In this document: positions 25,714-33,755 of the stretch, piece after piece
Numbering within the stretch: the first letter of the stretch is position 1
Layout of the letters: each line of letters begins with the position of its first letter
DNA from: Planctomycetota bacterium
GTDB lineage: Bacteria > Planctomycetota > Brocadiia > Brocadiales > Brocadiaceae
Length of the DNA stretch: 42,801 bases
Assembly (NCBI GenBank): GCA_023261485.1
Contig: JAHFOY010000006.1
Span: forward strand, 1-42,801
Direction of reading: 5' to 3'
Made by a program: the position numbers and the translations under genes
The notes under the pieces: model-generated
What the model saw: only the letters and a program-made list of their open reading frames with translations
Databases searched by the model: none
Told to the model about the DNA's origin: nothing

Positions 25714-25741
25714 GTAGTGGCAAGGCGCGCCTTGCCACTAC
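25714..25741. repeat. 28-bp perfect palindrome, copy 1
   Basis: A perfect palindrome with 14-bp arms, GTAGTGGCAAGGCG and its complement. An identical copy lies at 26919-26946, so the two copies flank cbiB. No loop. REP-like element. Confidence 0.9.
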
Positions 25742-25791
25742 AAAAAGGTGGTTTGAAATTCCTATACATGAACGTAGAGACGACCCCCGGC

Positions 25792-25872
25792 GGGTTCAGA
25801 TTTGCAATTTGAACCCACTTTTTGGCTTATTATCCGAACAAACTCATGGGTTCAGGTTGCAAATTTGAACCC
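25792..25872. repeat. Two near-identical 25-bp imperfect palindromes
   Basis: Units at 25792-25816 and 25848-25872, each starting GGGTTCA and ending TGAACCC around a TTGCAA-type centre, separated by 31 bases. A degenerate relative sits at about 1873-1892, where it ends the truncated toxin gene. Only two units, so not a CRISPR array. Confidence 0.8.
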
Positions 25873-25891
25873 GCGTAGTAGTGAGTGTTAA

Positions 25892-26863
25892 ATGATTAAC
25901 AATGAGAATATGCGGTTTATTGAATTGTCCTTTGCTTTTGTTCTGGACCTGGCCATCGGCGATCCACAATGGTCATACCATCCGGTGCGGCTGATTGGTA
26001 GATCGATAGAAGGTATGGAGTCTCTGCTAAGAAAATTACCCATACCCGTGCGTATAAGCGGGATACTCCTGACCATGACCATTGTTTCTGGGACTTATCT
26101 ATCAATTTATGCGTTGTTGTCATTATCAAAACAGTGGAGTATACTGGGTGAAATAATAATTGGAGCAGTTATTATTTATTTTGCTATTTCTGTAAAAAGT
26201 CTGTCAGATGAATCCAAAAAGGTAATGACAGCTCTGAAGGAACATGATTTAATAAAGGCTCGAAAGGCGTTATCATTGATTGTAGGACGGGACACCGCAA
26301 ACCTCGGTGAAGAGCAGATAGTGCGCGCCTGCATAGAAACCGTTGCGGAGGGGAGTGTGGACGGTGTTTTGTCGCCGTTATTTTATGCCTTTGCCGGAGG
26401 ACCAACTGCTGCAATGGCATATAAGGCCGTGAATACGCTTGATTCCATGGTAGGACACAAAGACGAAAAATATATCCGGTTCGGATGGGCTTCGGCAAGA
26501 TTGGATGACCTAGCCAACTATATCCCGGCCAGAATTTCTGCGATATTAATTCCGATGGCTTCCTTCTTGTGTGGTTATGGTTTCAGGGATTCTTTAAGGA
26601 TTGCCTGTCGTGATGGGCGTAAGCACGATAGTCCCAATAGCGGTATTCCCGAAGCGGCTATAGCAGGTGCATTAGGAATTCAGATAGGGGGGCCAAGTAC
26701 ATATCAAGGCGAGATCGTGGAAAAGCCCTGTATCGGAGACGCCCAAAATCCACTGACTACTAAGTCAATAGAGGCAGCCACTAGGATAATGTACGTTACT
26801 TCCATTTTATTCATTGCCTTTGGAATTGGAGCAATTCTCTGTTTAAAATATTGGTTCTTCTGA
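25892..26863 (+). CDS. cbiB: Adenosylcobinamide-phosphate synthase CbiB/CobD
   Basis: 323 aa integral membrane enzyme that attaches the aminopropanol (or ethanolamine-type) arm to adenosylcobyric acid. Family text is clear: DLAIGDPQWSYHPVRLIG near the N-terminus, VGRDTANLGEEQIVRACIETVAEGSVDGVLSPLFYAF, AYKAVNTLDSMVGHKDEKY, FGWASARLDDLANYIPARISA, and DGRKHDSPNSGIPEAAIAGALGIQIGGPSTYQG. Helices lie at about 55-75, 85-105, 205-225 and the C-terminus. The start is ATG 25892, with no strong Shine-Dalgarno. Identical 28-bp palindromes stand on both sides. Part of a cobalamin/cobalt block with cbiQ, cbiO and cbiA. Confidence 0.96.
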   Translation: MINNENMRFIELSFAFVLDLAIGDPQWSYHPVRLIGRSIEGMESLLRKLPIPVRISGILLTMTIVSGTYLSIYALLSLSKQWSILGEIIIGAVIIYFAISVKSLSDESKKVMTALKEHDLIKARKALSLIVGRDTANLGEEQIVRACIETVAEGSVDGVLSPLFYAFAGGPTAAMAYKAVNTLDSMVGHKDEKYIRFGWASARLDDLANYIPARISAILIPMASFLCGYGFRDSLRIACRDGRKHDSPNSGIPEAAIAGALGIQIGGPSTYQGEIVEKPCIGDAQNPLTTKSIEAATRIMYVTSILFIAFGIGAILCLKYWFF

Positions 26864-26918
26864 TATTTCCTGAATAAATAAAGTTAAAATTCCTAACCAG
26901 AACAAGTCGGAAAAGACC

Positions 26919-26946
26919 GTAGTGGCAAGGCGCGCCTTGCCACTAC
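26919..26946. repeat. 28-bp perfect palindrome, copy 2
   Basis: Identical to 25714-25741. It lies between cbiB and cbiQ, 62 bases before the preferred cbiQ start. A GTG inside it could open the cbiQ frame upstream but would translate the repeat. Confidence 0.9.
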
Positions 26947-27008
26947 TTAAAATATTTTTGCTGAAAAATGTCAAAATATTTTTTGTAAGGTATTATACAA
27001 TTAGCATT

Positions 27009-27806
27009 ATGAAATTATCTACCAGCTTATTGGAAAAACTCGATCCAAGGACAAAGATCATTTCATTCCTTTCCGTTATTCTCTGCATGATACTGACTCC
27101 AATTACACATATCAGAGAGTTTGGACTGTATTTTTTATTAATATTAGCTATTGGATTTTGCTCAAAGATTACGCCAAGACAGATATTGAAAAAGGTATGC
27201 ATCTTAATTCCTTTTGTCCTCTTTATTGCGATGTTTGTGCCATTTGTAAAGGAAGGGAACGTATGCTGGTCATTGAAAATAAGCAATTGGAAATTTGATA
27301 TTACGTACGAGGGCGTCTGGACGTTTCTTAATATTATCGTCAAGTCTACATTATCTGTATTTCTCCTGGTGATCGCTTCTTCAACAACAACATTTCCTGA
27401 TTTTTTAAAAGGACTGGACATGCTCCGCATACCGCGGCTGCTTGTTATGCTCATGTCGTTTATGTACCGTTATATCTTTGTGCTGATAGACGAGGCAGGG
27501 AGGCTTATGCGCGCCAGGTCTCTTCGTTATTTCGGTTCCGGGTATAAGGAACAATTTCGGGTAATAGGATACATGATTGGGGTATTATTTATCAGGACGT
27601 TTGAGCGCGCCGAGAGAATTTTCAACGCAATGATTATTCGGGGATTTAGCGGAGAGGTAATTAGCGTTAAACGTTTCAGATTTTCTTATATGGATATTTT
27701 ATTCATGGCTGGTATAATCGTATCGTTGGTTTGTATTGTCTCTGGTCTGATTAATAAAATCGAATATATTGGGGTTAGCGGCGCACATCTATGGCAAGGA
27801 TTATAA
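27009..27806 (+). CDS. cbiQ: Cobalt ECF transporter T component CbiQ
   Basis: 265 aa from ATG 27009. The N-terminus STSLLEKLDPRTKIISFLSVI is the CbiQ/EcfT signature. Four or more membrane helices follow, then the coupling helices with ARSLRYFGSG and ERIFNAMIIRGFSGE, equivalent to the Ala-Arg-Gly-type motifs that contact the ATPase. It is the energy-coupling membrane subunit of a cobalt (or nickel) importer. The frame extends upstream to a GTG in the palindrome at 26922, which is unlikely to be used. It overlaps cbiO by 16 bases. The substrate-specific subunit CbiM and CbiN are absent from the neighbourhood. Confidence 0.94.
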   Translation: MKLSTSLLEKLDPRTKIISFLSVILCMILTPITHIREFGLYFLLILAIGFCSKITPRQILKKVCILIPFVLFIAMFVPFVKEGNVCWSLKISNWKFDITYEGVWTFLNIIVKSTLSVFLLVIASSTTTFPDFLKGLDMLRIPRLLVMLMSFMYRYIFVLIDEAGRLMRARSLRYFGSGYKEQFRVIGYMIGVLFIRTFERAERIFNAMIIRGFSGEVISVKRFRFSYMDILFMAGIIVSLVCIVSGLINKIEYIGVSGAHLWQGL

Positions 27807-28579
27807 AAGTATCAAACTTAAATTACCGTTACCCTGATGGAACAACGGGCCTAAAGGACGTTAGTTTCGAAGTCGAAGAAGGGGAGACCATGGTTATTCT
27901 CGGCGCCAATGGAACCGGGAAATCGACGCTGTTTATGAATCTGATGGGCATTCTGGATGGTGACGGACATATAGAGGTTATGGGGTTACTGCTCGACAAA
28001 AAAAATGTGAAGGACGTCAGGCGCGGGATGGGAATGGTATTTCAGAATCCCGACGATCAGTTATTCTGTCCTACAGTTATAGACGATGTTTCCTTCGGGC
28101 CATTAAACCTGGGGCTGGAGGCAGATCAGGTTATTGAGGCGTCGCAAAAGGCATTAACCATGGTTGACTTACAAGGTTATGAATCTCGCACGTCATACCA
28201 TCTGAGCTTTGGCGAGAAGAAAAGGGCAGCTATAGCCACGATATTGTCCATGAATCCAAAGATACTGTTATTGGACGAACCCACCAGTGGATTAGACCCC
28301 AGAAGCATATCAAAATTTATCAATATCCTATACACCTTGAAATCTCAGGGTAAGACGCTCCTGATTGTAACACATGATCTGTTTCTTACCCAGGAGATAG
28401 CAGACCGGGTACTCGTATTTAGTGAAGAGAAAAGGCCGGTTGCTATAGGGAATTACAAAGAAATTTTAAATAACTACGACTTATTACTAAAAAACAATCT
28501 GGTTCATCAACACCGCCATCGTCATGAAACAGTTGTACATGAGCACGAACACCGGCATGGTTACATCCACGAACATTAA
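27791..28579 (+). CDS. cbiO: Cobalt ECF transporter ATPase CbiO with His-rich tail
   Basis: 262 aa ABC ATPase. Walker A GANGTGKST (38-46), Q-loop VFQNPDDQLF, signature LSFGEKKR (in place of LSGGQ-type), Walker B ILLLDEPTSGLDP, and switch His in VTHD. Energises CbiQ. The last about 25 residues are unusual: nearly half are His, in HRHRHE, HEHEHRHG and HEH groups, a probable cytosolic metal-binding or sensing tail. The tail DNA overlaps the start of the next gene. It overlaps cbiQ by 16 bases, so the two are translationally coupled. Confidence 0.96.
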   Translation: MARIIKVSNLNYRYPDGTTGLKDVSFEVEEGETMVILGANGTGKSTLFMNLMGILDGDGHIEVMGLLLDKKNVKDVRRGMGMVFQNPDDQLFCPTVIDDVSFGPLNLGLEADQVIEASQKALTMVDLQGYESRTSYHLSFGEKKRAAIATILSMNPKILLLDEPTSGLDPRSISKFINILYTLKSQGKTLLIVTHDLFLTQEIADRVLVFSEEKRPVAIGNYKEILNNYDLLLKNNLVHQHRHRHETVVHEHEHRHGYIHEH

Positions 28580-29330
28580 TAACAATATAAGTTTTACCGA
28601 CGATATCTGTGCGGATGGGATATGCTGTTTTATGAGTATTCCCAGGAAACAGACCCATTTGGGCATGTGGAAGACTTTCCTGAAGCGGAGAAATGCGTCT
28701 TACGGAGTCAAACTGCTTTACACAAGCACTCAGGCGAAAGACATAGTTTATAATCCTTGCAGATGTTTGGAATTTTATCTGAAGGAGATTGTCTCCGAAG
28801 ATGGTCCAACCCTGAGAGTATTATTACGATGCGGCATATTTACGAAAGGGTGCCGGCCATATACCTGTAAGGGATTTCCCGATAAGACGGATAGTTTTAT
28901 GCATGACGTGCTTGCCCCATGTGTTTATAATGAATATATAGCACATGAAAATTATGTCCAGCTTAAATACTCACACGTCTTCCGTCTTTTTTACGCTATT
29001 AAAGACGATAATAAATTACTCGGAAAGATTTTCCCCGGGTATTCAGCCGAAGATGTTCGGGAAAAATTAAACCAGTGTAAAGACGTTGTGAAGATTAGCG
29101 CCATCTGGAATGAAAAGCCGTCCGAATACTTTTTACTTGAGGTGCCTAAAACAAAATCTGTATTATATACTTCCGATGTCCATCCACAGATAAAGGGTGT
29201 AAAACAAGCATACGATTTGTGGCAAGGACACATTGAAGGCTGGCTTGAAAGGCATTATGGCAGTAAATGGCATGACCATTTGGAAAGTACAATTGAGAGA
29301 GAAAAGGATGCGGTAAAAAGAACAAAATGA
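28557..29330 (+). CDS. Cysteine-rich cytosolic protein (possible YkgJ-like metal cluster)
   Basis: 257 aa from ATG 28557 (ATG 28524 is also possible). No signal peptide or helix is visible. Cysteines cluster in the first 130 residues: DDICADGICCF, NPCRCLEF, LRCGIFTKGCRPYTCKGFPD and LAPCVYN. The spacing CxxxxCC ... CxC ... C(x7)C(x4)C and the ending C+GFP recall the YkgJ/UPF0153 family, which binds iron-sulfur or zinc. The match is partial and by memory only. The start overlaps the His-rich tail of cbiO by 23 bases and the stop overlaps the next ATG (ATGA), so it is tightly bound to the cobalt transporter operon. Role unknown; a metal-handling partner of CbiQO is the natural guess. Confidence 0.7.
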   Translation: MVTSTNINNNISFTDDICADGICCFMSIPRKQTHLGMWKTFLKRRNASYGVKLLYTSTQAKDIVYNPCRCLEFYLKEIVSEDGPTLRVLLRCGIFTKGCRPYTCKGFPDKTDSFMHDVLAPCVYNEYIAHENYVQLKYSHVFRLFYAIKDDNKLLGKIFPGYSAEDVREKLNQCKDVVKISAIWNEKPSEYFLLEVPKTKSVLYTSDVHPQIKGVKQAYDLWQGHIEGWLERHYGSKWHDHLESTIEREKDAVKRTK

Positions 29331-29758
29331 GTAAATGTAATAAAATATTTGCTTGTATTCAAATATTTGTCATTATTTTTTTCATGGTATGCAATGGTGG
29401 GTTAGCGGTAAACCCTGCCATTAAATCTGGCGCATATCCTTGCAAAGATCATCAATGTGGCTGTAAATCCGAGTCTGATTGTAAAACACATTGTTGCTGT
29501 GCACCTAAAGGAAATCAAGACACGTTCCATACCGCTATCGAAAAACGGAACGGTTTCAAAACTTTTATAAGCAGCGTAAACTGCAAATATGGAAATGACC
29601 CGCTTACACCCATAACCTTTACGGCTAAATATATATTGGAGAGCCGGGTACATGCGATAAAGGAGTCATTCCTGTGCTTTCTTTGCAGGGAAGCGCCCTC
29701 AAACATTCCTGATGTAGTAATATTTCCTCCGGAAAAACCACCACGATATTTCATATAA
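29327..29758 (+). CDS. Small secreted cysteine-rich protein
   Basis: 143 aa. A signal helix (IFACIQIFVIIFFMVCNGGLA, about 7-27) is followed by a dense Cys/His block YPCKDHQCGCKSESDCKTHCCC, and later single cysteines in VNCKYG and FLCFLCREAP. I recall similar CGC...CCC segments in uncharacterised secreted planctomycete proteins (low confidence). It is a periplasmic or exported protein likely to bind a thiophilic metal. It overlaps the previous gene by ATGA, so it belongs to the cbiQO operon. Tail rich in Pro and hydrophobic residues. No enzyme motif seen. Confidence 0.7.
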   Translation: MSKCNKIFACIQIFVIIFFMVCNGGLAVNPAIKSGAYPCKDHQCGCKSESDCKTHCCCAPKGNQDTFHTAIEKRNGFKTFISSVNCKYGNDPLTPITFTAKYILESRVHAIKESFLCFLCREAPSNIPDVVIFPPEKPPRYFI

Positions 29759-29803
29759 CTCCTTATTCACCTCTTAGAATTACTAAATTTCGATTCATTG
29801 ATT

Positions 29804-29883
29804 TGCTCAAGCATTAGATACGGGACCTCTACGGCATTTCCAATATGCTGGAGATACCTCCGATATGCTATCGGTATTGAGCA
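29804..29883 (+). promoter_or_regulatory. Structured leader before first beta-barrel gene
   Basis: TGCTCAA (29804-29810) pairs with TTGAGCA (29877-29883). Inside is a tight hairpin CCGATA-TGC-TATCGG (29860-29874). It lies 37 bases before the ATG at 29920. No cobalamin-riboswitch consensus is seen. Part of it (CTCAAGCATTAGATACG, 29806-29822) recurs with one change at 36918-36934, so it may instead be a dispersed repeat. Confidence 0.45.
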
Positions 29884-29919
29884 TCAAAAGAACTCTGTAT
29901 TAAAAAGGAGATATATGTA

Positions 29920-30966
29920 ATGAAAATACTGGTTGCAATTTTTTTGTTTTTCATGTTTATGAACAGCACTGTATACGCCCACGGCGAATGCTGCCTGTCA
30001 AGGTCTCTTACCGAGGCAACAACTTCTGATATGGCCGTTGCAGAGAATCTTGGGCTTTCACTCCAGTATGAATACTCGAACATGAAAACGATACGAGACG
30101 GCAGTAACAGTATAAGCCACAATACTGTGCTGGACAGAGTAACCGAAGAGTGGCCTGAGATGTCGCCGGAGACGAGGAGTTTTTCAATTCCGACAAGAAT
30201 GATTATGCAAAAATATACGTTCCTGGCCGCATACCACCTCACGGAGCGATTCCAGTTCCTGGTCAATATTCCCTATGTTATAAACGATATGTACATGAGG
30301 AAAATAACAAGGAACAATATGGGCATGGATATGAGAATGGACATGAAGATGGATACGGTCGAGGGACCAGGTGACATGACACTGATGGGACTTTATACGC
30401 TCCTCGCCGATGAACCTGCTAATCCAACAAAAAAACTCACTCTGGGTTTGGGCGTAAAAACTCCAACGGGAGAAAACGATGAAGTGTCTGAATCCGGTTC
30501 TCTGGTTCATGCCATGATGCAGCCAGGCACAGGTTCGTGGGATCCCTTATTTTTGGTCAATTATATGCGGTCATTTTATCCTCTGGTATTACAGGCCAAT
30601 CTCCTTTACCATATGACGACAGAAGGGGATCAAGGTTATGAATTTGGAGATAAGGTGTCTTTGGATATTATTGCCAGATACCGGGTCGCCAGTTATTTGA
30701 ATCCCGGCTTGGAATTGAACGGATTGTATGCAGGAGAGGACACCGACCACGACGGCAAATACTCAAGACCCGATACATCCCTCCTGGATAACACAGACAA
30801 TACCGGCATTACATCCCTTTCTGTTACTCCAACTGTCCGGGTAAATATTCCCAAAACCGGCGGCAGTGTTGATTTAAAGTTCCAAAAGCCAATTTATCAA
30901 AACGCCAACGGTACGCAGCAAGTAGTGGACTGGAGGGCGATGGCATCGGTTGTGTGGGCTTTTTAG
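29920..30966 (+). CDS. Outer-membrane beta-barrel channel, paralog 1
   Basis: 348 aa. Signal peptide KILVAIFLFFMFMNSTVYA, with the mature protein predicted to begin HGECCLSRS, a potential metal ligand cluster. The rest is alternating strands ending in VVWAF (C-terminal Phe). A Met/Asp-rich loop MGMDMRMDMKMD lies at about 133-145. It shares with the gene at 31280 the blocks KTPTGEND, QPGTGSWDPLF, and LLYHMTTEGDQGYEFGD. It resembles the MetA-pathway/phenol-degradation-type (Phenol_MetA_deg) outer-membrane proteins. In this setting a channel for cobalt or a cobalt chelate is possible, but unproven. AAGGAG precedes the ATG. Confidence 0.8.
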   Translation: MKILVAIFLFFMFMNSTVYAHGECCLSRSLTEATTSDMAVAENLGLSLQYEYSNMKTIRDGSNSISHNTVLDRVTEEWPEMSPETRSFSIPTRMIMQKYTFLAAYHLTERFQFLVNIPYVINDMYMRKITRNNMGMDMRMDMKMDTVEGPGDMTLMGLYTLLADEPANPTKKLTLGLGVKTPTGENDEVSESGSLVHAMMQPGTGSWDPLFLVNYMRSFYPLVLQANLLYHMTTEGDQGYEFGDKVSLDIIARYRVASYLNPGLELNGLYAGEDTDHDGKYSRPDTSLLDNTDNTGITSLSVTPTVRVNIPKTGGSVDLKFQKPIYQNANGTQQVVDWRAMASVVWAF

Positions 30967-31026
30967 AGATGGAAAGCGGCTGTAAAAAGCCTCGTAGCAG
31001 AGGTATTTAGCGTTTGGAAATTTCAG

Positions 31027-31055
31027 TGTAGGGGTTGAAATCTTCAACCCCTACA
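31027..31055. repeat. 13-bp-arm hairpin after paralog 1
   Basis: TGTAGGGGTTGAA (31027-31039), loop ATC, TTCAACCCCTACA (31043-31055): perfect arms. No T-run follows. REP-like, or a transcript-end stabiliser. Confidence 0.85.
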
Positions 31056-31067
31056 TACTCCTGTCCG

Positions 31068-31254
31068 AGGCAGCCTAATTCCATGCATAAGAATTTCAAT
31101 CTTTTAAATATGCAATTAATAAACACACCCCTACCCCTCTCAAGAGGGGAATTTGAGAAGTCCCCTCTTGGGAGGGGATTAAGGGGTGGGTAAAAAATAA
31201 AACTTGTTCTCGTGTAAACGGGGAGTCGTTGGGTTTTTGTCTTGCAAAACCCAA
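31068..31254. repeat. Composite intergenic repeats before paralog 2
   Basis: Contains AGGCAGCCTAATT (31068-31080, also at 5258-5270), a CCCCTC-rich inverted repeat with outer CACCCCT/AGGGGTG (31126 and 31182) and inner CCTCTCAAGAGGGG-type pairing up to 31188, and a further hairpin TTGGGTTTT/AAAACCCAA (31229-31254). The last hairpin ends 25 bases before the start of the gene at 31280 and could influence its expression. Confidence 0.65.
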
Positions 31255-31279
31255 TCTGATTTGATTTTGGAGGAGGCAT

Positions 31280-32260
31280 ATGAAAACCACTGTAATAAAA
31301 TACCGTTATATAATTATTTTCATAATCTGGATGATTGCGACAGTATGTAAAAACAATGCTTATGCCTGTGATTTGTGTTCTCTCGGCGGATTCGGCGGGA
31401 CTACGGGCGCCGTCAATCCGATTTCTGCGGAGTCGCCTAAGAAAAACAAATACACCCTGGGATATATATTGGAGTATCAGGATTGGCAATCCGTCAACAT
31501 AAGGAAAGCACATGAATTGCACGAAGAAGGCCGGGATGCACATGCCCGGAAGAATGATATTTCGAATAGCGTTTTTTTTGGCTATGGGATTACTGATGCG
31601 CTTTCCGTCAGTCTGCAGGTACCCTATGTAGAAAGACGCTTTAAGGAAGTACATGAAGAAGAATTTTTAGGTGATAGCGAAAAAGCTACGGGTCTTGGAG
31701 ACTCAATTCTGCTTGGAAAGTACAAATTTTATGACAAACAATTTGGGCTGGCCGGGATATTTGGTTTGAAATTGCCTACAGGAACTACAGACGAAAGGAA
31801 TAAGACCGGAGAAAAATATGAGCCGGAATTACAGCCAGGTGCGGGGTCTCTGGATTATCTATTTGGTATCTCAGCCAACAAAAAAATCAATCATTTGATT
31901 GTAGTGGACGGTACGGTGTTATACCATCTTAAGACAGAAGGCGATCAGAATTATGAATTTGGCGATATCGTTAGAGTGACCACCGGTGCGACCTTTAATG
32001 TCATTGATGGGAATAAAAAACCTACACTTAATTTCTTATCGGAAGTTATTTCACAATTTGCCAATAAAGATGTACAAGACGGAGAGACGATTCGTGATTC
32101 CGGCGGCACGACCATCTTTTTTGCACCCGGCGTTTCCTCTTACCTTACAGAGCAGTTAAAAACAACGCTATCCGTTCCAGTGCCTGCGTATCAAGGATTA
32201 GGGGGAGAACATCAGGAACTGGATTTCAACGTTCTTTTCAGCATGAGTTACAGTTTCTAA
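31280..32260 (+). CDS. Outer-membrane beta-barrel channel, paralog 2
   Basis: 326 aa. A basic start and signal helix (YIIIFIIWMIATVCKNNAYA) lead to a predicted mature N-terminus CDLCSLGGFGG, a CxxC motif at the very start. Barrel strands follow and end in FSMSYSF. It shares KLPTGTTDE, QPGAGSLDYLFG, and VLYHLKTEGDQNYEFGD with the gene at 29920, so the two are paralogs of one barrel family. A His-containing segment KAHELHEEGRDAHARK (about 72-87) adds further possible ligands. The start has GGAGGAGG close upstream. Together with paralog 1 it forms an outer-membrane pair between the cobalt importer genes and cbiA. Confidence 0.8.
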   Translation: MKTTVIKYRYIIIFIIWMIATVCKNNAYACDLCSLGGFGGTTGAVNPISAESPKKNKYTLGYILEYQDWQSVNIRKAHELHEEGRDAHARKNDISNSVFFGYGITDALSVSLQVPYVERRFKEVHEEEFLGDSEKATGLGDSILLGKYKFYDKQFGLAGIFGLKLPTGTTDERNKTGEKYEPELQPGAGSLDYLFGISANKKINHLIVVDGTVLYHLKTEGDQNYEFGDIVRVTTGATFNVIDGNKKPTLNFLSEVISQFANKDVQDGETIRDSGGTTIFFAPGVSSYLTEQLKTTLSVPVPAYQGLGGEHQELDFNVLFSMSYSF

Positions 32261-32285
32261 ATATTTGTATTTTCCAGTGAAATTC

Positions 32286-32314
32286 TTGACCATTCATGCG
32301 TAACGGTATATAAT
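32286..32314 (+). promoter_or_regulatory. Strong sigma70-type promoter for cbiA
   Basis: TTGACC (32286-32291), exactly 17 bases, TATAAT (32309-32314). Transcription would start near 32321, leaving a leader of about 43 bases before ATG 32364, too short for a riboswitch. Confidence 0.7.
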
Positions 32315-32363
32315 TCAAAACCTTTAATTATCGTTTAGCAGCCAATCAGTTTTTATTTAAATC

Positions 32364-33755
32364 ATGCATCATACTTCACATAAATATCCCAGGATATTAA
32401 TAGCAGGCACGCACAGCGGTGTGGGTAAAACAACCGTTACCCTCGGCCTGATGTCTGTATTGAAAGAAAAGGGTTACAAAGTGCAGGGGTTTAAGGCAGG
32501 ACCTGATTATATTGACCCCTCACATCACACGGCAATTACCCAAAAACCTTCGCGTAATCTCGATACGTGGCTCATGAGCCAGGATGTGTGCCTGGAATTG
32601 TTCGAGCATGCCCTGGCAGATTCAGATATGGCGGTTATCGAGGGAGTAATGGGACTCTATGACGGCTGCCTGGACGGGAGCGAACTGGGAAGTACGGCAC
32701 ACCTTGCCAAGATATTGAATGTGCCTGCGATATTGGTAATGGATTCCAAGGGAATGTCGCGCAGCGCAGGCGCAGTTGTATTGGGATATAAATATTTTGA
32801 TAGAGACGTAAAAATTCAAGGGATAATTCTTAACAGAGTTAAGAGCGAGCGGCATTATCGTTCTCTGAAAGCATCTATAGAAGGAAATTGCGGCATTCCT
32901 GTTTTAGGGTATTTGCCTTTCAATGATGATATAATACTCCCGGAGCGTCACCTGGGTTTAGTGCCGTCAGTAGAGCAGGAATTTTCAAAGTCTACATATC
33001 AAAAGATCGGTGATTTGCTGGCAACTACTGTGGATATAGATAAATTTATTGATATTGCATCGTCATCCGGCGGTATTCCCTCATATAAAAAGACGGTATT
33101 TAGCGGGATAAATGAAAGGTTTTATTTCAGAATTGCCGTCGCTGTGGACGAGGCATTTAATTTTTATTATCAGGACAACCTTGACCTGCTGGAATTGTAT
33201 GGTGTAGAGCTTACTTATTTTAGTCCATTGTATGATAAGTATCTGCCAGCGGATATCGATGGATTATACATTGGCGGGGGTTTTCCTGAACTATATGCTA
33301 ACCTGCTTGCTTCAAACACCACAATGAAGGAGTCCATACGTAAAGCGCACAAAAAAGGTGTGGTCATATACGGCGAATGCGGGGGGATGATGTACCTGCT
33401 TGAACAAATGGCAGACTTTAAAAAGAAGACGCATGAAATGTGCGGAATACTCAAGGGAACTACCATTATGGAAAATAAAAGGCAGGGGCTTGGATACATT
33501 ACAGTTCAAGCGCTGCACGATAACATCTTATGCAAAAAAGGGGAGATGTTCAAAGGCCATGAATTTCACTGGTCATCACTGCATGTTCCTGAAGGTACGC
33601 CGTATGCTTATGCGATTTCCAAATGTGATGACAAGAAATCAAAAATGGACGGCGTCTTTACAGACCATGTATTAGGTTCCTACACTCATGTCCATTTTGC
33701 AACTGACCCCAGGTTGTTAAAACATTTTTTGTATACTATTGCAAAAAGGGCTTAA
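32364..33755 (+). CDS. cbiA: Cobyrinate a,c-diamide synthase
   Basis: 463 aa. The N-terminal ATP-binding domain has GTHSGVGKTT (15-24), GFKAGPDYIDP and VIEGVMGLYDG. The C-terminal glutamine amidotransferase domain has GGGFPELYANLLA, the nucleophile Cys in YGECGGMMYL (about residue 339) and the terminal THVHF histidine block. It amidates the a and c side chains of cobyrinic acid (or hydrogenobyrinate), an early committed step of corrin maturation. It has its own promoter, so it can be expressed apart from cbiB/cbiQO. No other corrin-ring gene is in the window. Confidence 0.95.
   Translation: MHHTSHKYPRILIAGTHSGVGKTTVTLGLMSVLKEKGYKVQGFKAGPDYIDPSHHTAITQKPSRNLDTWLMSQDVCLELFEHALADSDMAVIEGVMGLYDGCLDGSELGSTAHLAKILNVPAILVMDSKGMSRSAGAVVLGYKYFDRDVKIQGIILNRVKSERHYRSLKASIEGNCGIPVLGYLPFNDDIILPERHLGLVPSVEQEFSKSTYQKIGDLLATTVDIDKFIDIASSSGGIPSYKKTVFSGINERFYFRIAVAVDEAFNFYYQDNLDLLELYGVELTYFSPLYDKYLPADIDGLYIGGGFPELYANLLASNTTMKESIRKAHKKGVVIYGECGGMMYLLEQMADFKKKTHEMCGILKGTTIMENKRQGLGYITVQALHDNILCKKGEMFKGHEFHWSSLHVPEGTPYAYAISKCDDKKSKMDGVFTDHVLGSYTHVHFATDPRLLKHFLYTIAKRA

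Follow-up and report, generated by a model that had tools for sequence, protein, structure and literature searches.

Related metal transport systems

TonB-dependent receptors are the main known route by which copper, nickel, and cobalt enter through the outer membrane. The locus described here codes for two small outer-membrane barrels next to cobalt/nickel-type transport genes. It lies in the window, a 42,801-nucleotide stretch that forms the first 42.8 kb of a 62-kb contig (C124) in an anammox-family metagenome-assembled genome (84% complete). Its eight genes are cbiB, cbiQ, cbiO, CysCyt (predicted cytosolic, Cys-rich), CysSec (predicted secreted or membrane-anchored, Cys-rich), OMB1 and OMB2 (the barrels), and cbiA. 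An initial annotation had placed the unassigned genes in the outer-membrane and periplasmic part of one cobalt/nickel uptake pathway. Comparison with 59 relatives, among them Candidatus Brocadia, Jettenia, Kuenenia, and Loosdrechtia, supports that view only partly. Two metal systems at one site, a cobalt/nickel-type energy-coupling factor (ECF) transporter and a CysSec-OMB1 module probably handling copper, is the preferred reading, with about an even chance of being correct.

The CbiMNQO and NikM(K)LQO importers resemble the first part of the locus. CbiQ and CbiO are clear members with coupling motifs, and their neighbors make corrins. Unlike these importers, the locus has no CbiM, CbiN, cobalamin riboswitch, or NikR site, its CbiO is His-tailed, and barrels and Cys-rich proteins are linked to it. 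The genomes also hold two further complete CbiMQO operons.

The COG4313/PF13557 channels (Pput2725, PDB 4RL8) and FapF (5O65-5O68) share with OMB1 the 12-stranded barrel fold and a sequence profile match. Known members import hydrophobic compounds or export amyloid, whereas OMB1 has a conserved Met ladder, an HGECC motif after its leader, and linkage to metal genes.

The OprC/NosA copper receptors (TIGR01778) are outer-membrane barrels with a Met track, and CysSec relatives adjoin such receptors in Scalindua-side genomes. OMB1 differs in being small and 12-stranded; at the profile level it shows neither a plug domain nor a TonB box, and it has no sequence-level homology to them.

The delta-proteobacterial nikMNQO operon (PMC545781) resembles a second operon of the relatives, termed type B, with NikR, CbiM/NikM, a NikL-like protein, NikQ, NikO, and the operator GTGTTAC-N13-GTAACAC. 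In the anammox version, the operon gains a barrel plus a DUF3347-like secreted protein of the His/Cys kind. This comparison does not apply to the window locus.

Gene loss divides the locus

Co-loss was scored in 27 family genomes, 18 with intact CbiO and nine without (solitary CbiM was scored in 17 of the 18). CbiO has disappeared without remnant in eight genomes and is internally deleted in the ninth. The coupling motifs of CbiQ are intact in 20/20 cases with CbiO and destroyed in 8/8 without it, where a CbiQ relic is left. The barrels OMB2/3 (OMB2, or OMB3 in other genera) are found in 16/18 CbiO-intact genomes vs. 1/9 CbiO-lost genomes (Fisher p 0.0002), and a solitary CbiM in 13/17 vs. 1/9 (Fisher p 0.003). 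CbiO, the CbiQ coupling motifs, the remote CbiM-PDGLE pair, and OMB2/3 thus tend toward joint loss.

The other genes behave differently. CysSec and CysCyt are each present in 17/18 CbiO-intact and 9/9 CbiO-lost genomes. OMB1 occurs in 8/18 and 8/9, respectively, and is therefore missing from 10 of the 18 genomes with intact CbiO. Between G009 and G016, members of sister genera, CbiO, the solitary CbiM, and OMB3 were lost together and CysSec was retained. Because CysCyt, CysSec, and OMB1 are kept in genomes that have lost CbiO and the CbiQ motifs, they do not require a working CbiQO; the direction of the counts is clear despite their non-independence.

The gene order reported initially is real and not due to chance. 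All eight open reading frames are present at the positions first given, the order is kept through the anammox family, and homologues of CysCyt and CysSec keep the same place across it. Linkage of the unassigned genes to cbiB, cbiQO, and cbiA is stable within the family; outside the family, these genes are found mostly away from cobalt genes. Beyond the initial annotation, the locus has no CbiM/S component, its two barrels belong to different subfamilies, and one of them is methionine-rich.

The CbiQO transporter and its regulation

Domains were assigned by Pfam and NCBIfam curated cut-offs, which CbiB, CbiQ, and CbiA exceed. CbiO scores slightly below the cut-off of TIGR01166 (208.2 vs. 211.8 bits), though cobalt-type models are nonetheless its best matches. 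The earlier assignments of CbiQO to a cobalt/nickel-type ECF transporter and of CbiA and CbiB to corrin synthesis agree with these matches. The His-rich CbiO tail is also as described; in 18/18 intact relatives of the locus, the final 35 residues contain 7-11 His, vs. 0-2 for CbiO encoded in the two other kinds of CbiMQO operon.

Most anammox-family genomes encode three CbiQ genes. Type A is the window locus, arranged grpE-dnaK-cbiB-cbiQ-cbiO-CysCyt-CysSec-barrel(s)-cbiA. Type B is a nickel operon of NikR, CbiM/NikM, a NikL-like protein, CbiQ, CbiO, a barrel, and a secreted His/Cys protein. Its NikR scores 190.7 bits against NF003381 (cut-off 105), and the promoter site derived de novo, GTG[TC]TAT-N13-GTAACA[CT], agrees with the published delta-proteobacterial NikR consensus (PMC545781). 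Type C is composed of CbiM, a small protein, CbiQ, CbiO, an aminotransferase, and CobQ. A cobalamin riboswitch is present at one type C locus (L145), the only one where it was sought and found; the scan covered some of the type C loci. In G015, the type B set CbiM-CbiQ-CbiO-barrel occurs twice in tandem (L148).

No cobalamin riboswitch is present at the type A locus, and neither a NikR gene nor a NikR operator at the window locus; strong NikR sites are confined to type B. Control of the window locus by NikR or a B12 riboswitch was rejected accordingly.

No CbiM or other S component is encoded in the locus or in the organism's own assembly, which is incomplete as given above and in which the first base of the window is also the first of the contig. 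In relatives, a solitary CbiM is encoded together with a PDGLE-domain protein (PF13190) elsewhere in the genome, and in G004 this pair precedes the locus by 36 kb on one contig. In the window organism, the equivalent place lies beyond the contig start, so the missing pair could reflect a gap in the assembly.

OMB1 and its sister barrels

The AlphaFold model of OMB1 is a 12-stranded barrel (predicted local distance difference test score, pLDDT, 81.5; predicted template modeling score 0.79). Foldseek places it closest to 4RL8, a COG4313 channel (E 3e-12), with FapF next, and a profile search matches it to FapF by sequence (E 1e-7). OMB1 has no PF13557 match over the cut-off, whereas 23/34 aligned relatives including OMB2 do, and no match to the TonB-dependent copper receptor model TIGR01778.

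The barrels fall into five subfamilies by the motif after the leader: HGECC in OMB1, CDLC in OMB2, NHGPG in OMB3, HHGGVS in OMB4 (the NikR loci), and HHGSV in OMB5. As initially noted, the hydrophobic leaders of OMB1 and OMB2 give way to HGECC and CDLC, respectively, at the putative mature N-termini. A YHS-domain lipoprotein follows OMB3. Upstream of the barrels, the search for conserved dyads gave only low-complexity repeats.

OMB1 alone carries the Met ladder, which was not found in OMB2-5. Residues 55, 94, 96, 124, 126, 140, 144, 156, and 200 are Met in 21/21 OMB1 sequences, and M138 and M142 in at least 90%. There are 7.1 MxM motifs per OMB1, vs. 1.0 in shuffled sequences (largest shuffle 1.57). 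Strand alternation on the predicted model puts M55 with S47/Q49/E51/S53, M94/M96 with K98/T100, M124/M126 with Q112/N116/N122, and M156 with D152/T154, so the Met residues would face the polar, lumen side. A similar methionine track is what binds Cu(I)/Ag(I) in OprC (PMC8610252). By analogy, the ladder is a lead for copper rather than a test.

Sister barrels accompany nickel genes. NikR lies within 5 kb of a barrel in 20/28 NikR-bearing family genomes, and the type B sites have NikR operators. Because barrels of the same family stand in NikR-linked nickel operons, a role in the metal envelope is credible, and COG4313/FapF-fold barrels seem to have been turned into metal-envelope components in anammox bacteria. 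Among the matches listed from 392 Planctomycetota-wide genomes, no barrel outside the order is within 10 kb of CbiM; the metal association is therefore a trait of this order and not of the barrel family as such. At type B loci (L146, L150, and others), the outer-membrane barrel is accompanied by a secreted His/Cys protein that is DUF3347-like. In G008, G044, G004, and G049, NikR adjoins a barrel with no CbiM nearby.

CysSec and CysCyt

CysSec is a small protein bearing an N-terminal hydrophobic segment and the motif PCxxHxCGCKxxxDCxxxCCC. Homologues are present in 41/59 relatives. At family loci, a barrel lies within 2.6 kb of 38/40 CysSec copies, the exceptions being one contig end and one copy with a broken barrel nearby. 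The CysSec-barrel pair is also a mobile unit that turns up in the vicinity of type B or by itself, and a further secreted protein often separates the two. A protein termed c60 is coded between CysSec and OMB1 in some genomes and has the heavy-metal-binding domain PF19335 in one. Outside the family, CysSec keeps the company of a barrel, but CbiQ and CbiM are missing. By-eye inspection upstream of the CysSec cassettes revealed no obvious shared operator. A suspected identity of c23 as YcnI/DUF1775 was dropped, as the protein had no Pfam or NCBIfam match.

Full-length TonB-dependent copper receptors (TIGR01778) are encoded in 3/59 relatives (G041, G046, and G055), all Scalindua-side, and each lies ~1 kb from a CysSec relative. 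None was found in the anammox family that bears OMB1. In Phycisphaerae and others (L194-L206), the gene for a CysSec-motif protein commonly has a prepilin/DUF1559-type gene after it; in L204, DUF4198 comes next. Because motif proteins precede prepilin-type genes there, the motif is, judged from these sequences, broader than any single metal pathway.

CysCyt resembles YkgJ-type proteins by eye only, with no PF03692 (YkgJ-type Cys cluster) match in the Pfam scan. Its AlphaFold model is unusable (pLDDT 49), and no PDB relative was found. A second CysCyt paralogue, ~38% identical, is encoded in the organism's own genome (L158, contig C29, 9005-9796), and there is one per family genome. Its neighbors are glutamine synthetase and a carbonic-anhydrase-like gene, and it lies apart from metal genes.

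Features of the locus

CysCyt, CysSec, and OMB1 have no Pfam or NCBIfam family above cut-off. The overlaps of 16, 23, and 4 bases initially reported for the first genes are found at 27791-27806, 28557-28579, and 29327-29330, the second of these assuming that CysCyt starts at the ATG at 28557 (the longest open reading frame begins at 28524); cbiB and cbiQ do not overlap.

Table 1. Coordinates of the locus features in the window and the basis of each assignment.
Feature	Position	Strand	Basis
cbiB, adenosylcobinamide-phosphate synthase	25892..26863	+	PF03186 344 bits; TIGR00380 255.4 bits (cut-off 165.9)
cbiQ, ECF T component (type A), coupling motifs RARS and IRGF	27009..27806	+	TIGR02454 150.4 bits (cut-off 111.8); PDB 5x3x CbiQ E 1e-9
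cbiO, ECF ATPase	27791..28579	+	PDB 3gfo CbiO E 5e-52; best NCBIfam models cobalt-type
His-rich C-terminal tail of CbiO	28505..28576	+	Conservation in type A CbiO
CysCyt, predicted cytosolic Cys-rich protein	28557..29330	+	No family; Cys invariant at 7 positions, RPYTC..FPD; kept beside cbiQ in anammox family
CysSec, small, predicted secreted or membrane-anchored Cys-rich protein	29327..29758	+	No family; PCxxHxCGCKxxxDCxxxCCC
OMB1, predicted 12-stranded outer-membrane barrel, Met ladder, leader then HGECC	29920..30966	+	AlphaFold, Foldseek, Met conservation
Densest stretch of OMB1 Met ladder, residues 124-144, MYMRKITRNNMGMDMRMDMKM	30289..30351	+	Met conservation
OMB2, barrel of same family as OMB1, leader then CDLC, not Met-rich	31280..32260	+	PF13557 32.7 bits (cut-off 22); co-retained with CbiO
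cbiA/cobB, cobyrinate a,c-diamide synthase	32364..33755	+	TIGR00379 516.9 bits (cut-off 261.4)

A perfect 28-base palindrome, GTAGTGGCAAGGCGCGCCTTGCCACTAC, flanks cbiB at 25714-25741 and 26919-26946, with no third copy in the window. More palindromic repeat units lie at 25790-25874, in the gap before cbiB, and at ~31120-31190, between OMB1 and OMB2. These are probably small repeat elements.

Proposed function and alternatives

The two proposed systems would share one genomic site and probably transcripts. In the ECF system, the His-tailed CbiO would drive CbiQ, and the substrate-binding CbiM and its PDGLE partner would serve from elsewhere in the genome. OMB2, or OMB3 in other genera, is the likeliest outer-membrane entry for CbiQO because it is co-lost with CbiO. 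Cobalt is a plausible cargo, since corrin enzymes are encoded on both sides. In the other system, OMB1, with its ladder on the predicted lumen side, would pass or bind a soft metal. Copper(I) is the likeliest candidate, and CysSec may take it over or hold it at the inner side of the outer membrane. The copper-related reading is based on the Met ladder, the CysSec relatives beside all three copper receptors, and the persistence of both genes without CbiO. The comparison itself establishes the order of the genes and its conservation, the class of fold, the Met ladder, the co-loss pattern, and the proximity to copper receptors and NikR; the substrates, uptake rather than export, and the action of CysSec with the barrels are inferred. 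Anammox cells have extra compartments, and the protein locations at this locus are predicted.

Several observations weigh against this proposal. The Fisher tests ignore shared ancestry, the tree suggests only ~3-4 independent losses, and several genomes are incomplete. The co-loss pattern has exceptions: g6, G010, and G013 have CbiO without a solitary CbiM, and G023 the reverse; G024 and G032 have CbiO without OMB2/3, and G021 the reverse. Copper receptors occur in only three genomes, where the CysSec relative is without part of the Cys cluster. CysSec pairs with Met-rich and ordinary barrels alike and is hence not copper-specific, and no copper regulator site was found. FapF is an exporter of polypeptide (amyloid), and COG4313 channels of known role import hydrophobic compounds (PMC4493636). 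A literature search found no metal role for COG4313/PF13557, which is weak evidence of absence.

The initial view would make a single cobalt (or nickel) route, feeding CbiQO and corrin synthesis, out of both barrels in the outer membrane, CysSec in the periplasm, and CysCyt in the cytosol. It accounts for the tight overlaps, the family-wide synteny, and the conserved His tail, and the sister barrels in NikR/NikMQO operons and the co-loss of OMB2/3 with CbiO fit it. It is unlikely as a whole, as CysSec, CysCyt, and OMB1 are kept in genomes with a dead CbiQO, over half of the CbiO-intact genomes do without OMB1, the Met ladder is typical of copper rather than cobalt, CysSec relatives stand beside copper receptors, and the locus lacks the riboswitch or NikR site of the other two operon types. 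Outside the family, CysSec and barrels do without CbiQ and CbiM.

If OMB1 and CysSec do handle copper, they could serve export, sequestration, or tolerance instead of uptake. Met-rich and Cys-rich ligands are equally common in copper tolerance and uptake proteins, and an RND-type efflux gene set was seen by eye beside the cassette in L106. That reading as a whole has perhaps one chance in five; the copper receptors adjoining CysSec relatives are an uptake class, and sister barrels are located in nickel uptake operons, both of which speak against it. Somewhat less probable still is a role of the barrels as unspecialized COG4313 channels, passing hydrophobic or other organic compounds, or as FapF-like secretion pores, in a neighborhood of synteny without functional link. 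The fold matches, the known family roles (PMC4493636), the position of barrels outside the order away from cobalt genes, and the equally well conserved upstream GrpE-DnaK linkage agree with it. Repeated independent association with NikR, CbiQO, and a copper receptor, subfamily-specific metal ligands, and relocation of the CysSec-barrel pair as a unit to other sites argue against it.

Significance

Gene loss among relatives can separate two systems that look like one by gene order. A broader and more tentative proposal, which we hold at somewhat below even likelihood, is that anammox COG4313/FapF-type barrels diversified into TonB-independent, metal-specific channels. These would comprise NikR-linked nickel barrels, CbiQO-tied barrels, and the Met-lined copper barrel OMB1, each paired with its own small secreted protein rich in Cys or His. 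Anammox bacteria rely heavily on metalloenzymes. If the proposal is true, small barrels with metal-specific lumen residues would be a second outer-membrane route for metals, which for copper would be unusual in bacteria.

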